A DNA stretch of 34,290 bases from Methanosaeta sp. PtaU1.Bin112 (GTDB lineage Archaea > Halobacteriota > Methanosarcinia > Methanotrichales > Methanotrichaceae). The stretch lies in NCBI GenBank assembly GCA_002067705.1, contig MVRL01000178.1, positions 1 through 34,290 on the forward strand. The letters run 5' to 3'. Position numbers and translations under genes: made by a program. Position 1 is the first letter of the stretch; the number at the start of each line of letters is the position of its first letter. Below are positions 12,673-19,972 of this stretch, one piece after another. The notes under the pieces were generated by a model. It was not told the origin of the DNA, did not search any database, and was given only the letters and a program-made list of their open reading frames with translations.

Positions 12673-14676
12673 TTGAAGCTGGTAGATCTTCCCGGTGTAG
12701 GCTCTCGGATCAGAGAGCGCCTCATAGAGCAATATGGCGATGAGGAAAAGTCCCTGCATGCGATATTGAACGCCGATGTAGCAGGCTTGTGCAGAACATT
12801 GAGCGAACGCCAGGCCCTACTCCTGGTATCGCATGCTCGCGGCATGAAGTTCGCTATAACCCCTGAGCAGTTCCTGGCTACGGATGAGGCGACCAGGATT
12901 CAGCAGATTCTTCTCACCCGTCTGGCAAGCTATGCGCATACTGAATACGCCAGGCTCAAGATCGGCACTCTTTTTGCCAGCTCCTCCGGGGCGCTTCTGG
13001 CCGAGAACCGCAAGGCTGCCTTGGAGGCTTTCCAGACTGCAAAGATGATGCAGGGACGGGGCCTGGAGAAGCTGCTGAAAGATATCCGGCCGCTGAGAGA
13101 GAAGGCTGCAGCCAGAGTTCGAGAGAGAGCGGTGGCTGCGACCTCCGCAGAGGATTTTCAGAAGCTTAAGTCGAAAGGACTGGACAGGCTGATCGATCTG
13201 CATCTGGCTGAGAGCCCGGCAGAGCTTTTAGACCTGGCCAGGAGCTACAGCCACGTCTGCCTGATCGGCGATGAGGTGAGCGGGCAGGCGGCGGAGGATA
13301 TGGAAAGGGCCGAGTCTCTGGAGGAATGGTATCTGGTGCCGGAGGCGGTCCTGGGATTTTATGAGGAGAATTTAGAGACCCTGCTGGCAGCTGCCCAGAC
13401 GGCCCAAAAGCTGCATGAGGCAGGCATTGCCGGATTTGCAGAATGGCAGAGCCTTCATAAGCTGCTCGCCAGGCTGAATGAGAGCGCGGACCGGGAAGGA
13501 GAACGGCTGGAGAGGCTGTCTGCGAGCCTGGGCAGATGCGCGGAGGAGGCGGCAGCCTGGGCCAATGAGCAGCTGAAGAGCAAGATTGAGAAAAGCTCCC
13601 TAACCCTGGGCGGCACTGACCTGCTCCTGGTCATGAGCCGGGGAGAAGGAGTGCGAGAGATCCTGGAGGCGCAGATGAAGAGCGTCTTTGCCCAGGTCCT
13701 TAAAGACGCTAAGGCCCGAGCCGCAGGACAGCTCGATCTCGCGGGAGCGGAGACCGTATGGCTCGACGAGATCTTCTCAGAGCAGATCAGCTATCCTCTG
13801 GAGCTGAACCGGCATGCTCTGCGCTCCTTTGAGCTGGATCTCCAGAGCCGCAGGGAAGGCCGGGGCCTCACGAGAAAGAGGGAGATCGCCCGGAGCCTGG
13901 CGGACAAAAGGGATGAAGCGGCGGCGCTGGTTCATGCCCTGATGGAGTTTGACTATTCCTACGCTCTGGGGCGATTTTCCCTGGAGGAGCGCCTCACCTT
14001 CCCTGAGATCGCAGAGGAGCCTTGCCTCTCCTTTGCAGAAGGCCGCCACCTCTTCCTGGACAGGCCGGAGGCGGTGAGCTACTCCCTGGGCAGCGCGGAT
14101 CATCCCGAAAAGGTAGCCCTGCTCAGCGGCGTGAACTCAGGCGGCAAGACCACCCTCCTGGACCTGATCTCCCAGATTGTCATCCTGGCGCACATGGGAC
14201 TGCCCGTGCCAGCCAAAGACTGCAGGCTCTCTCTATTTGAGGAGTTTTACTACTTCAGCAAGAGCCGGGGAACTCTCTCCGCCGGGGCCTTCGAGACCGC
14301 GATGAGAAAGTTTTCCGTGGTCGAGAATGAAAAGAGAAAGCTGGTCCTGGCGGACGAGCTGGAGGCCATCACCGAGCCTGGAGCCTCGGCGCGCATCATC
14401 GCCTGCATGCTCGATGAGCTTAACCGGCGGGGATGCGTGGCGGTCTTCGTGAGCCACCTGGCTGAGGATGTACGCCGCTGCGCGGAGACGCCGGTGCGGG
14501 TGGACGGGATTGAGGCGGAGGGGCTGGATGAGAACAACAACCTGCGCGTCAGCAGAAGCCCCCGCTACAATTACCTGGCCAAGAGCACCCCAGAGCTGAT
14601 ACTGGACCGGCTGGTGCGATCCACCCAGGGGCGGGAGCGGGAGTTTTATGCCAGGCTGCTCGCGAAGTTCAAATGA
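12673..14676 (+). CDS. MutS-family ATPase with N-terminal helix-hairpin-helix (archaeal MutS-related)
   Basis: 667 aa. The N-terminus (KLVDLPGVGSRIRERLIEQYG) is a helix-hairpin-helix DNA-binding element. Residues about 180-440 are helical and resemble the MutS lever/core. The ATPase domain has Walker A GVNSGGKTT at 486-494, a signature region FYYFSKSRGTLSAGAFETAM, Walker B KLVLADELEAIT, and the H-loop VAVFVSHLAEDVRR. There is no mismatch-recognition domain I and no Smr nuclease domain, so it differs from both MutS1 and MutS2. A role in recombination control or DNA repair is inferred. Start is TTG 12673 with GAGGT 5 nt upstream. Confidence 0.85.
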   Translation: MKLVDLPGVGSRIRERLIEQYGDEEKSLHAILNADVAGLCRTLSERQALLLVSHARGMKFAITPEQFLATDEATRIQQILLTRLASYAHTEYARLKIGTLFASSSGALLAENRKAALEAFQTAKMMQGRGLEKLLKDIRPLREKAAARVRERAVAATSAEDFQKLKSKGLDRLIDLHLAESPAELLDLARSYSHVCLIGDEVSGQAAEDMERAESLEEWYLVPEAVLGFYEENLETLLAAAQTAQKLHEAGIAGFAEWQSLHKLLARLNESADREGERLERLSASLGRCAEEAAAWANEQLKSKIEKSSLTLGGTDLLLVMSRGEGVREILEAQMKSVFAQVLKDAKARAAGQLDLAGAETVWLDEIFSEQISYPLELNRHALRSFELDLQSRREGRGLTRKREIARSLADKRDEAAALVHALMEFDYSYALGRFSLEERLTFPEIAEEPCLSFAEGRHLFLDRPEAVSYSLGSADHPEKVALLSGVNSGGKTTLLDLISQIVILAHMGLPVPAKDCRLSLFEEFYYFSKSRGTLSAGAFETAMRKFSVVENEKRKLVLADELEAITEPGASARIIACMLDELNRRGCVAVFVSHLAEDVRRCAETPVRVDGIEAEGLDENNNLRVSRSPRYNYLAKSTPELILDRLVRSTQGREREFYARLLAKFK

Positions 14677-14715
14677 TCAGGTGCTCCTTTTATATTCAAG
14701 AGAGAGACTATTTTT

Positions 14716-14931
14716 ATGGAACTGTGGCATATAGTCGTGATCTGCATTCTCATGTTTCCCCTTTTTCTCATCGCCAACTACATCGTCGTCAAGAAGGCGG
14801 CAATGGAGCGGAGAATGCGCGACGAAAGGATCGAGCGGGCGGTTTCCGACAGCGTGGCGGCCAGCTACGCCAACAAGGGGATGGCCAGGCAGAACTGGCC
14901 GAAGTACAAGGCACCGAGGAAGAGAGAGTAA
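14716..14931 (+). CDS. Small single-helix membrane protein (hypothetical)
   Basis: 71 aa. One N-terminal membrane helix (LWHIVVICILMFPLFLIANYIVV) is followed by a basic, soluble tail (KKAAMERRMRDERIERAVSDSVAASYANKG...YKAPRKRE), the topology of a small inner-face anchor. It lies 39 bp after the mutS-like gene on the same strand, so it may be part of that transcript. No family recognised; the upstream GAGAG is only a weak ribosome site. Confidence 0.6.
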   Translation: MELWHIVVICILMFPLFLIANYIVVKKAAMERRMRDERIERAVSDSVAASYANKGMARQNWPKYKAPRKRE

Positions 14932-15335
14932 GGTTAAGATTTCAATTTTCGGGGACGTTTTTTTCGAGTTTTAGAGATCTCTGCTCCCTCGCAGAGGCTT
15001 CCGTCCGGCTGCTCTCGCACGCATGTGGGCAGTGATGTGCCGCGGGCAGCGATCGGGGCGAATGGATTCGCGACCTCTTCTGCCTTCGCATGAGACTAGA
15101 ACAGGGCCGATTTATGCCCGGTAAGTAAGCGCTTGTATGTCCAAGACTTCAGGAATCGTGGCTATCCTTAACGCTCTGAACTGAGACGGCTAAAGGTATG
15201 CATTGCGATTTTCCATTTTTCTCGTAAAAAACAGAACCTGATTCGATCCAGCACTCTTACAGAAAAAATTAAATAAGTAATTCTAACTATTGATCCGTAC
15301 TAAAGATACGAAATAAATTTCAGGGCGATTCATCT
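14932..15335. other. 404-bp intergenic region before the large surface-protein gene
   Basis: No coding signal was found on either strand. The first half is GC-rich and featureless apart from a T-run (GTTTTTTTCGAG, about 14957-14968) that may end transcription of the upstream gene. The last 80 bp turn AT-rich, with a TATA-like AAAATTAAATAAG near 15264-15276 that would suit the gene at 15336. Confidence 0.5.
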
Positions 15336-18068
15336 ATGAAGACAAAATACATTTCAAAAAAATATAACATAAAAAATAATTATAAATTATGTGATTTTAG
15401 TAAATTAAATCGATGCATCTGCAGTTTGAGGGCCATCTTTATGCTGTTACAGCTTATCCTCATCCCGGCTGCTGCCTCTTCTTTGAGCCTCTCCGGCCCG
15501 CACGATGCAGATATATCAGGAGAGGACGCATACGAGATGTATTTCCTCTCCAGCGAGGATGCGAGCAGTCTGTCTGCACTGATAGAGCTTCCTGAGGGCT
15601 TCAGTTATAGTGGAAATGCGGAGCTTATTTGGGGCGGCCATAGATCTTCAATTCCGCCCGTGCAGAGCGAAAGTTCCCTGCAATGGGACCTCTCCCCAGC
15701 ATTAAAATCCTGCCGGCATATCGTAATCAATGAATGGGAGCCCAATCCCCCTGGCAGTGACACCAAAAAGGAATGGATTGAGCTGTACAATCCATCCGCC
15801 CAGGCAATCAATATCGGCGGCTGGAAGCTTGTCGACAGCTATTACGGCAAGTCGGTTTCCATTCCATCGAACGCAGTCATCATGCCGGATGGCTATCAGC
15901 TCATAACCTGGACCAACGGCTCGCTCGTCAACTCTTACAAGGCCAGCATCTCCCTTCTGGACAGCTCAGGAAGCGAGATTGACCGCACCTCCTCGGTCAA
16001 AGACGAAAAGAACAATGACCTCTCCTCTTCGCGCAATCCCAATGGCAGGGATCTTGACAATGACCTGGATTGGATATTTCAGGCGGCCACGCCCGGATGC
16101 AGCAATGGCGGAAATTCTGCAGACATCTATGCCGGCGAGTCTCTCGGTTTGAAGTTCAATCTCACCGCCGGATGCAGCGCACCAGGTCAGGAGCAGATAT
16201 CAGCAGAGATCCGCTTCTCAGCTGGCAGGACGCAAGCTCCGCCGCTTCCCTTAACCGTCAGAAAAGCCAATCTGAGCCTCTCCACTGCCCCGGATCGATT
16301 CGATGTCGCCCCAGGTGATGAGATCATCTGGACCATTTTGCTGGAAAACAATGGAGATGGGACGGCCCACAATGTGGCTCTCAACTTGACAATAGATAAG
16401 GGCCTGCAGCTTGTAGAGATCGATTCTCCTAACAAAGACCTGGACTGGGGCTATGCATCCCTGGCGCCAGGCCAAGGGAAGAGGATCACTCTAAAAGCCA
16501 AAGTGACTTCTGCCCAGAAGAGCTACATCAGCGCCTTTAGGGCTCGCTGGGGCCCCGATCCATGCCAGGAGACCACTCAACTCTCTCTGCTTGGCGCAAG
16601 AACGGCTCTTCGAAAGACGCCAGACCAACCTCGCAGCCTCACCGTGGGCGAATCGGTCGGCTTTGAGATCTCCGCCGACCTGCCTCGCGGCGCTCGCAGC
16701 CTGTGGATCAATGATACCATTCCTTCGGCACTGACCTACAATGAGAGCAGCCTGTCCGTGCAGGGACGGGCACCTCTAGAGATGATGGTCGCCGCAAATC
16801 CCGACGGCACCCAGAGGATAGGCTGGTTTTTCGGAGACTGCGGCCCCGCAGAGACAATAGACATCTCCTATGACTGCCAACTGGACAATTCGCCCGAAAA
16901 CCAGGACGGAAGGGTCCTGGCAGGAACTACCGCCCGCATGAGCTGGAATGAGGGCGCAGCCGGCAGGGCAGATGCCGATGAGTGCGGCCCTCTAAACGTG
17001 GTCGAGCCGGACCTGGTACTGGAGATGCAGTCCGCCCGGCCTTTTGCCGCTCCGCAAGACAGCGTCGCCTTCACCCTTCTCCTCTACCACTCCAACCAGA
17101 GCCATGCCACGGCCCATGACATCGATCTGCAGCTGCTCCTGCCCGCGGCCCTGAATTACAAGCCGGGCTCAGCACAAGTATTGGCGGGACCGTCCGCTGC
17201 ATTTGATGAAGAGAGCCTCAGATGGAAGCTGGACAGTCTGGATCTGGATTGGAGCGCGGACGGAAAGGCCATACTGAGATTCAATGCGACTGTGCATGCC
17301 ACGCCTGGAGAGACGATTGAGGGGCGCGCTCGGGCCACCTGGACAAGCCTCGCTGGCGCTCGCGCCCAGGAGCGCACAGGGGCAGGAGGAGAAAACGACT
17401 ACCTGAGAGAGGCTAATGCCAGCGCGCGAGTTATGAGCCTGAAGCTTACCAAAACCGCCGATCCGCAGCCTGTGCCGGTGGGCGAGCTTCTGACCTATGC
17501 CCTCACCTTCGAGTGCTTTGGCAGTGCAGCCCATAATGCAATCATTCGCGATCGCCTGGACCCGCGCGTCACCCTCCTCTCCGCCGAACCGCCTGCCGAT
17601 GAGGACGGAGCCTGGAAGATCGCAGAGCTCTCCCCGGACGGCCCGCACACCATCCTTCTTACAGTGCGGGTGAACGAGACCCTGCCTGACGGGGCGCTGC
17701 TGGAAAACCGCTATTCCATCGGCTGCGATGAGCTGGAGACCAAATCCGGCCGCCTTTACACTCCGGTCCTGAATGGAACGCTTCTTTCCGTCAACAAGAC
17801 GCCGCTACAAAAAGCAGTGCACCGGGGCGAAGAGGCCAGCTATCTCATCACGGTCTGCAACCGGGGCGGCCAGCCGGCAACCAACGTCACCGTGCGCGAT
17901 GTCTTCGACTCCTCAGTGGAGATGGTCTCTGCCTGGCCGGAGATGGCAGAGGACGGGGCCTGGCACTATTCGTCTCTCGCGCCGGGCGAATGCGTGCAGA
18001 TGGGCCTCACCGTGCGGATTCCCAGAACAGATGTACTCTACTGCAGCCAGGAGAACGTCGTGGGCTAG
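15336..18068 (+). CDS. Secreted surface protein, lamin-tail domain plus DUF11 repeats (N-terminal part, ends at in-frame TAG)
   Basis: 910 aa to the TAG. A long basic N-region precedes a hydrophobic signal core (IFMLLQLILIPAAAS). A lamin-tail (LTD) domain spans about 128-257 (IVINEWEPNPPGSDTKKEWIELYNP, GGWKLVDSYYG, NDLDWIFQAATPG). Four or five DUF11/CARDB-like beta-sandwich repeats follow, starting near RKANLSLSTAPDRFDVAPGD, LVLEMQSARPFAAPQD, LKLTKTADPQPVPVGE and LSVNKTPLQKAVHRGE. Such proteins build the methanogen cell surface; several NxT/NxS sites could be glycosylated by AglB. The TAG falls inside the last repeat and the same frame stays open for 531 more codons, so this is half of a longer protein. 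The first 80 bp of the gene are strikingly AT-rich compared with the rest. Confidence 0.8.
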   Translation: MKTKYISKKYNIKNNYKLCDFSKLNRCICSLRAIFMLLQLILIPAAASSLSLSGPHDADISGEDAYEMYFLSSEDASSLSALIELPEGFSYSGNAELIWGGHRSSIPPVQSESSLQWDLSPALKSCRHIVINEWEPNPPGSDTKKEWIELYNPSAQAINIGGWKLVDSYYGKSVSIPSNAVIMPDGYQLITWTNGSLVNSYKASISLLDSSGSEIDRTSSVKDEKNNDLSSSRNPNGRDLDNDLDWIFQAATPGCSNGGNSADIYAGESLGLKFNLTAGCSAPGQEQISAEIRFSAGRTQAPPLPLTVRKANLSLSTAPDRFDVAPGDEIIWTILLENNGDGTAHNVALNLTIDKGLQLVEIDSPNKDLDWGYASLAPGQGKRITLKAKVTSAQKSYISAFRARWGPDPCQETTQLSLLGARTALRKTPDQPRSLTVGESVGFEISADLPRGARSLWINDTIPSALTYNESSLSVQGRAPLEMMVAANPDGTQRIGWFFGDCGPAETIDISYDCQLDNSPENQDGRVLAGTTARMSWNEGAAGRADADECGPLNVVEPDLVLEMQSARPFAAPQDSVAFTLLLYHSNQSHATAHDIDLQLLLPAALNYKPGSAQVLAGPSAAFDEESLRWKLDSLDLDWSADGKAILRFNATVHATPGETIEGRARATWTSLAGARAQERTGAGGENDYLREANASARVMSLKLTKTADPQPVPVGELLTYALTFECFGSAAHNAIIRDRLDPRVTLLSAEPPADEDGAWKIAELSPDGPHTILLTVRVNETLPDGALLENRYSIGCDELETKSGRLYTPVLNGTLLSVNKTPLQKAVHRGEEASYLITVCNRGGQPATNVTVRDVFDSSVEMVSAWPEMAEDGAWHYSSLAPGECVQMGLTVRIPRTDVLYCSQENVVG
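18066..18068 (+). other. In-frame amber codon inside the surface-protein reading frame
   Basis: The codons read GTC GTG GGC TAG GGA TTC GTC CGC. The preceding NVVG and following GFVRSYRDYSTRRQADVLTNHVFVSSD together make the natural end of a DUF11 repeat. The interruption is therefore a single codon, not a domain boundary; CAG (Gln), GAG (Glu) or TGG (Trp) are each one base away. Confidence 0.85.
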
Positions 18069-18137
18069 GGATTCGTCCGCTCCTACCGAGACTACAGCAC
18101 CCGCCGCCAGGCAGACGTTCTCACCAACCATGTCTTC

Positions 18138-19664
18138 GTGTCCTCTGATCAAATGCTTCGCTCTTCGTCAGCCAATGTGAAGATCCTGGCTGAAGAGGGA
18201 ACTGAGCTTTCCCAGCGCACGCACGGCAGCGGGGATTACGAGGAAGAAGAAGAGCTGCGGTTTCTTGCTGCCAACAAATCCATCCGCATGCAGAGGAGCA
18301 TGAGAGCAAGCTATCATCCCACAACTCTTCCCTTGCCGAAAAGCGGCTCGCAGAGGATCTCCTCCCTCTGGCATGACGAATCTCGGGCCAGGAACGGCAT
18401 CACCAACACCTCCTTCGAAGAATCGTATCGATATTCCGCAACGCTGGCAAGCGAGAGCCACTATGATCTGGACAAAAACCAGTCAAAGATGCAGACGGAG
18501 TCCGGCTTTTATGGATTGGCGCACCTTGGGACCCTGAAGAGACCGGACCCGGGGCGTGGAGCGGATATCACCTCTGTTGAGGACTTCGCAGGGGACTTTC
18601 AGCTATCGGAGAACGTTCATGACCTCGGCCAGGGATTGATGATGGACCGCTCCACCTCCGGCCAGGGATTTGTGGCCAGAGACTTGCAGGGCCCAAGGTT
18701 GAGGAGCTTTGATTTTGGCGCTGGACGCTATCGGTCTGAGGATAGCTGCGAGGCGTTTTCCGGCTTCATGACCAAGGACCTAGAGGCAGCCCATCATGGC
18801 CTCAGCCTGCAAGTCACACCGGACACATTTCTGAACATCAACCAGAAGTGGTCGGAGGGAATAGAGCTTCTAACTCCCTCCAGCCTCATCTCCGAGCAGT
18901 ACCGCAGCGCCTCCCGGCTGAAGATTATTGCCACATCTCCCAGCAGCAGAGAGCTTAATAGCGAGGCCAACTTCTCAGGGATAGCTACGCTAAAAGCGAT
19001 TGCGCTCAAGAACGGAAGCCTTGCTGTAGACCGGGAGGAGACGCTTATGGGCGACTACAAGGTCTCGCGCAGAATCATCATCTCCGGCTGCGCTAAATAC
19101 GATCGGCCGCACCTCTATCTTCGCAAAGATGGCCGGCAGGTCAAGGATGTGGCGGTCTATACTATCACCATTACCAACGACGGCAACACCACCATCGGGC
19201 CGCTCTTCCTTCAAGACATCTTCCCGCCCGGCGCCAGATTCATCAATGCCACATTGCAGCCCAATCAGATCGGCCAGAACTGCTCCAACTGGACTCTGCT
19301 GCATCTTTCCATCGGCGATACATTGAGAATCGGCATCAACCTGAATGTGGAAAGGTGCGGGGATGATATCGTCAACTGGGCTATTCTCAAGGGCAACTCT
19401 CGCCTGGGCCAGGTCTTCGCGCAAAACCGGTCGGCAATCAGCCGGGGATACCTGGGGTGCTGCCCGATTGCAAAGCCCGTGCGGGCAGAGGACACCCAGG
19501 GAGCAGGCTGCGCCTGCTGGGACGAGAAGGCGGCGAAGGCCAATGAGACCGACTATCTGAACGCGCTTCTGATGCAGATGCAGGGGGACGGCTCCGGGGA
19601 GGGGTCCTGCTCCCTGAACTGCGATGGGGCGAAAGAGGACTACACCCCAAGGGTGAGTCTCTGA
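18138..19664 (+). pseudogene. C-terminal part of the DUF11 surface protein, downstream of the TAG
   Basis: 508 aa if started at GTG 18138; the frame is open from 18069 and is the same frame as the upstream part. It has no signal peptide and no ribosome site, so it is unlikely to be an independent gene for a secreted protein. The middle (HYDLDKNQSKMQTESGFYGLAHLGTLKRPD...ITSVEDFAGDFQL) and the last DUF11 repeat (CAKYDRPHLYLRKDGRQVKDVAVYTITITNDGN...LFLQDIFPPGARFINATLQP) resemble, from memory, the C-terminal halves of Methanothrix DUF11 proteins. The end is cysteine-rich and lacks a membrane anchor or PGF-CTERM-type tail. It is either a pseudogene half or expressed by reading through the amber codon. 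Confidence 0.65.
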
Positions 19665-19738: not shown

Positions 19739-19972
19739 ATGCAACCGCGAGTTCTGAAGATCGGCGAGAAGGTAACCGGCAAGTACAGGGACATGGAGAT
19801 GGGCAAGAGCCGCAAATTCTTCCGGGTCAAGCTGGACAACGAAGAGTTCTATCTGCCCAAAGACGTGGGCAATTCCCTCCTCGCCAGCCGCCAGAAAGGC
19901 AATGAGATGTTCACCATCTGCCGCCAGCTGGACGTCTATGAGATCCGGCCACTGCACGCAGAGATGGACTAG
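19739..19972 (+). CDS. Small protein of unknown function
   Basis: 77 aa, MQPRVLKIGEKVTGKYRDMEMGKSRKFFRVKLDNEEFYLPKDVGNSLL..., a mixed beta/alpha sequence rich in charged residues with no membrane segment and one cysteine. GAGGTGA lies 8-9 nt before the ATG, a strong ribosome site. It sits alone 74 bp after the surface-protein frame. The beta-rich first half could be an SH3- or OB-like barrel, but this is a guess from pattern only. Confidence 0.65.
   Translation: MQPRVLKIGEKVTGKYRDMEMGKSRKFFRVKLDNEEFYLPKDVGNSLLASRQKGNEMFTICRQLDVYEIRPLHAEMD

Follow-up and report, generated by a model that had tools for sequence, protein, structure and literature searches.

A private in-frame amber codon, probably a recent nonsense mutation, in a predicted DUF11/LTD surface-protein gene of Methanothrix

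Placing an in-frame stop codon among the systems already described is useful for deciding what such a codon might mean. In bacteria, in-frame stops are mostly short-lived and belong to the scale of population polymorphism (PMC7918605). In methanogens, single in-frame TAG codons are known from the pyrrolysine-containing genes mtmB, mtbB and mttB of Methanosarcina, and in Methanosarcina with constitutive pyrrolysine genes TAG makes up 4-5% of stops (PMC4153887). As for the encoded protein, the "sheath adhesins" described for Methanothrix are archaeal sheath (SH) proteins that contain several Ig-like domains (PMC11576556). Here, we examined an amber codon inside a long frame of Methanosaeta sp. 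PtaU1.Bin112 (GCA_002067705.1); "the window" denotes the whole stretch of DNA analysed, i.e., the 34,290 nucleotides of contig MVRL01000178.1.

The locus resembles the recent nonsense and in-frame stop polymorphisms of prokaryotes in that a lone TAG stands against CAG in relatives, while the downstream frame is preserved and under selection (PMC7918605). It differs from the cases in that study in being archaeal rather than bacterial and in having one carrier genome, so that persistence or reversal of the stop is not traceable. The likeness to mtmB, mtbB and mttB lies in the single in-frame TAG within a methanogen gene; unlike those genes, the one interrupted here is not a methylamine methyltransferase, its amber is not conserved, the residue at that place is variable, PylS was not found and TAG is a common stop. 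With the sheath adhesins it shares the genus, a long exported protein, a chain of Ig-like DUF11 domains and several copies per genome, although sheath adhesins are defined by an amyloid-like SH core and the likeness here is one of domain architecture only (PMC11576556). Overall, we regard the TAG as most probably a recent nonsense mutation, private to this genome, which cuts a DUF11/LTD surface protein short at residue 910.

Translation of the frame at 15336-19664 on the forward strand yields 910 residues (15336-18065), the TAG at 18066-18068 and a further 531 residues (18069-19664) closed by TGA at 19662-19664. The first-pass annotation had pointed to a single amber within an otherwise open frame, and the TAG is indeed the sole interruption. 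Both parts align unbroken to one open frame of ~1430-1510 codons in relatives. Conserved small genes flank the gene on both sides in these relatives, showing that synteny is kept: upstream a small conserved ORF (14673-15035, forward strand) and downstream a conserved ORF of 77 residues (19739-19972, forward strand; 76-92% identity), each found beside the orthologue in seven relatives' loci. The downstream ORF itself terminates with TAG as a normal stop. Further upstream, at 12673-14676, lies a 667-codon archaeal MutS-domain-V protein that starts with a helix-hairpin-helix, and its position is kept in several relatives.

The first start-type codon 3' of the TAG is a GTG at 18138, 23 codons in, and a check of the sequence found no ribosome-site motif ahead of it. 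This agrees with the earlier observation that the second half has neither a ribosome site nor a signal peptide of its own. Re-initiation at this GTG was considered and rejected, as the codon has no ribosome site, no signal peptide follows it and the start would fall inside a conserved strand. Because the two parts match one uninterrupted gene, synteny is kept and the downstream part is devoid of a ribosome-site motif, 15336-19664 is one gene with one in-frame amber rather than two genes. A naive gene caller would report two genes here, the second without a start. The annotated start (15336) possibly lies too far upstream, since similarity to relatives first appears at about residue 31-36 in the N-terminal alignment; ATG 15441 is an alternative start.

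Translation, Pfam and the orthologues together describe the upstream part as an export-signal-like N-terminus followed by LTD and several DUF11 (Ig-like) domains, the N-terminus being hydrophobic and signal-like as read from sequence alone. The Pfam matches in the interrupted gene are DUF11 (3.8e-39, several copies) and LTD (7.5e-15), and the gene is predicted to encode, in this Methanothrix strain, a large exported surface protein of the DUF11/LTD type. The Pfam DUF11 match stops at residue 896, 14 residues ahead of the TAG. Since conservation nevertheless continues across the codon and the TNHVFV strand comes after it, a DUF11-like unit spans the TAG, in keeping with the earlier proposal that the sequence on both sides belongs to one DUF11 repeat. 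The downstream part consists of a conserved module with one further DUF11 domain. The module after the TAG recurs as the C-terminal unit of several long open-frame surface proteins of the same genome (contigs C119, C89, C175, C136, C143, C193, C112 and C123), where at least seven further loci carry it, all of them open. This recurring module is possibly the sheath (SH) core, and "sheath protein" is only a possible label for the interrupted gene. A comparison of the second half with PDB sequences gave no match, and an AlphaFold2 model of it, built from a two-sequence alignment only, reached a pLDDT of 27. Relatives of the gene were not found in viral contigs and phage records.

To characterize the amber position, we compared 18 genomes of the same genus (Methanothrix) with an orthologue covering the TAG column, as the first-pass annotation had suggested. 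A variable sense residue occupied the column in 18/18: Q in six, R, H, F and E in two each, and K, S, I and D in one each; TAG occurred in none, making it private to this genome. The flanks are constant, with G before and GF after the column in all 18 orthologues, and the column itself is a freely variable position. At the codon level, covering 17 of the 18 orthologues, the six Q were all CAG and belonged to the genomes closest to the pair formed by the window and G019, i.e., its sister clade. G019, the nearest relative (Methanothrix sp. STF2_18, JAQVZT010000226.1; 81% identity), carries CGG. On the protein tree, the simplest history starts from CAG in the ancestor, followed by a C-to-T change in the window and an A-to-G change in G019; because the sister clade has CAG, one C-to-T change suffices for the TAG. 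In one of these orthologues (L078, G014:C64, minus strand), a 1-base deletion splits the frame ~130 codons before the TAG column; this may be a second break of the gene, independent of the TAG, or else an artefact of assembly.

Purifying selection acts on the second half along the window branch, and its frame has been kept. A codon model with the window, G019 and five outgroups gave a window-branch omega of 0.21 upstream of the TAG and of 0.32 downstream (95% interval about 0.19-0.55), against a background of about 0.22; the downstream excess did not reach significance (2dlnL about 2), and neutrality (omega = 1) was rejected on the window branch both before and after the codon. The 531 downstream codons contain no further stops and no gaps relative to G019. 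A random mutation in the second half has a probability of approximately 3.2% of making a stop. Neutral evolution along the entire branch should have produced about 9-13 further stops there, and none is present; at most about one quarter to one third of the branch could pass under neutrality without another stop. With no further stops and neutrality rejected, the stop is therefore recent, or not real. Polarised parsimony counts after the TAG (17 synonymous and 45 nonsynonymous changes in the window; 40 and 28 in G019) hint at extra amino-acid change on the window branch, which would fit some relaxation and, if real, would mean an older stop; by the likelihood test, this extra change is not significant.

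That the stop is not real is the alternative that survives best, and we consider it unlikely. Either the true codon of the genome would be CAG or a different sense codon, the TAG being an error of the consensus or of the metagenome assembly, or a minority strain allele would have been called as the consensus. The fully intact and selected remainder of the frame would fit this, as would the state of the assemblies: that of the window's genome is fragmented (200 contigs, 3.7% contamination), and others flawed in this gene include those with the 1-base deletion (G014) and runs of N (G017). However, it is uncommon for a single base to be wrong deep within a long clean contig, and the surrounding sequence shows no disturbance.

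Functional readthrough, in which a near-cognate tRNA passes the TAG in some ribosomes to give two protein lengths, seems improbable. It could account for the purifying selection on the second half along the window branch, and readthrough has been proposed in bacteria for frequent in-frame stops with selection downstream. Yet a nonsense mutation of recent origin would leave the same signal of selection, and the same study finds such stops mostly short-lived (PMC7918605). Moreover, the absence of TAG from the 18 orthologues counts against a maintained signal, as does the RNA in the 100 bases after the TAG, where no structure was detected (z = +1.8, i.e., less stable than shuffles). Also improbable is a leaky TAG acting as a dosage or length switch, with mostly a 910-residue chain lacking the C-terminal module and a small full-length share, through which selection on the second half would be maintained.

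We also searched for the means to decode TAG as an amino acid. A profile search recovered the PylS N-domain in 0/16 Methanothrix genomes (the window's and 15 others) as opposed to 9/9 other genomes of the class, taken as the outgroup. The PylS C-domain gave only matches far below cut-off in the window's genome, to other class II synthetases, so that the search for pylS called for by the first-pass annotation found no such gene in this genome. The accompanying search for a tRNA with anticodon CUA found none among 44 Rfam covariance-model tRNA matches, none with ARAGORN over 1.5 Mb (44%) of the genome, and none with a whole-genome pattern covering the anticodon and T arms, a longer pattern chosen because a short one for the CUA loop lacked specificity. 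tRNA-Tyr and tRNA-Asp were also not seen, indicating that this tRNA inventory is incomplete and that an intron-containing CUA tRNA could escape it.

Stop usage was assessed in coding-like frames called by a phased Markov scan, which recovers the known positive that a codon-usage scan missed. TAG terminates 331 of 1260 such frames (26%) across the 1.5 Mb scanned, 44% of the genome. All three stop codons are followed by in-frame continuations at similar frequency; those without a nearby start codon number three after TAG, two after TGA and one after TAA, giving no excess for TAG, and the TAG of the window is the strongest among them. A Pfam search of four of the other five continuations (those other than L213) found no stop-spanning domain, and these four look like neighbouring genes. 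An amino acid at the TAG, whether pyrrolysine or one delivered by a CUA suppressor tRNA, has in its favor the open frame and the pyrrolysine machinery of other genomes of the class, and is scarcely credible given the PylS and tRNA results and a TAG share of about 26% compared with 4-5% in Methanosarcina (PMC4153887). Of the possibilities raised by the first-pass annotation, the comparisons favor nonsense mutation or sequencing error and count against programmed readthrough and an inserted amino acid, considering the 0/18 orthologues with TAG, the searches for PylS and CUA tRNA and the unstructured RNA. Its ranking of pyrrolysine as least likely was sound, as PylS was not found and TAG is an ordinary, frequent stop here.

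As a recent nonsense mutation, the TAG would have arisen most simply from CAG (Gln) by a single C-to-T transition. The ribosome would be expected to stop there and release a 910-residue product that, as predicted, retains LTD and most of the DUF11 domains but lacks the end of one DUF11 unit, the conserved module of ~300 residues, the final DUF11 and the C-terminus (531 residues in all). The second half would still be intact because the mutation is young. Probably the cell tolerates losing it, because several related proteins encoded in the genome have the same C-terminal module. We infer the presence of the mutation in living cells, the truncated product and compensation by these related proteins. 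The other module loci and the frameshift in G014 fit an accessory surface protein, and the interrupted gene would be one more disrupted member of a multi-copy, apparently dispensable Methanothrix surface-protein family. The case shows that pyrrolysine need not be behind a solitary in-frame TAG in methanogens. Beyond annotation, it is of little consequence.

The LTD (lamin tail domain) also occurs in small stand-alone proteins of ~160 residues, which adjoin in pairs in most Methanothrix genomes searched. In the window's genome, this pair lies on contig C112 (48687-49603), and it occupies similar places in relatives (e.g., L022, L023 and L026).
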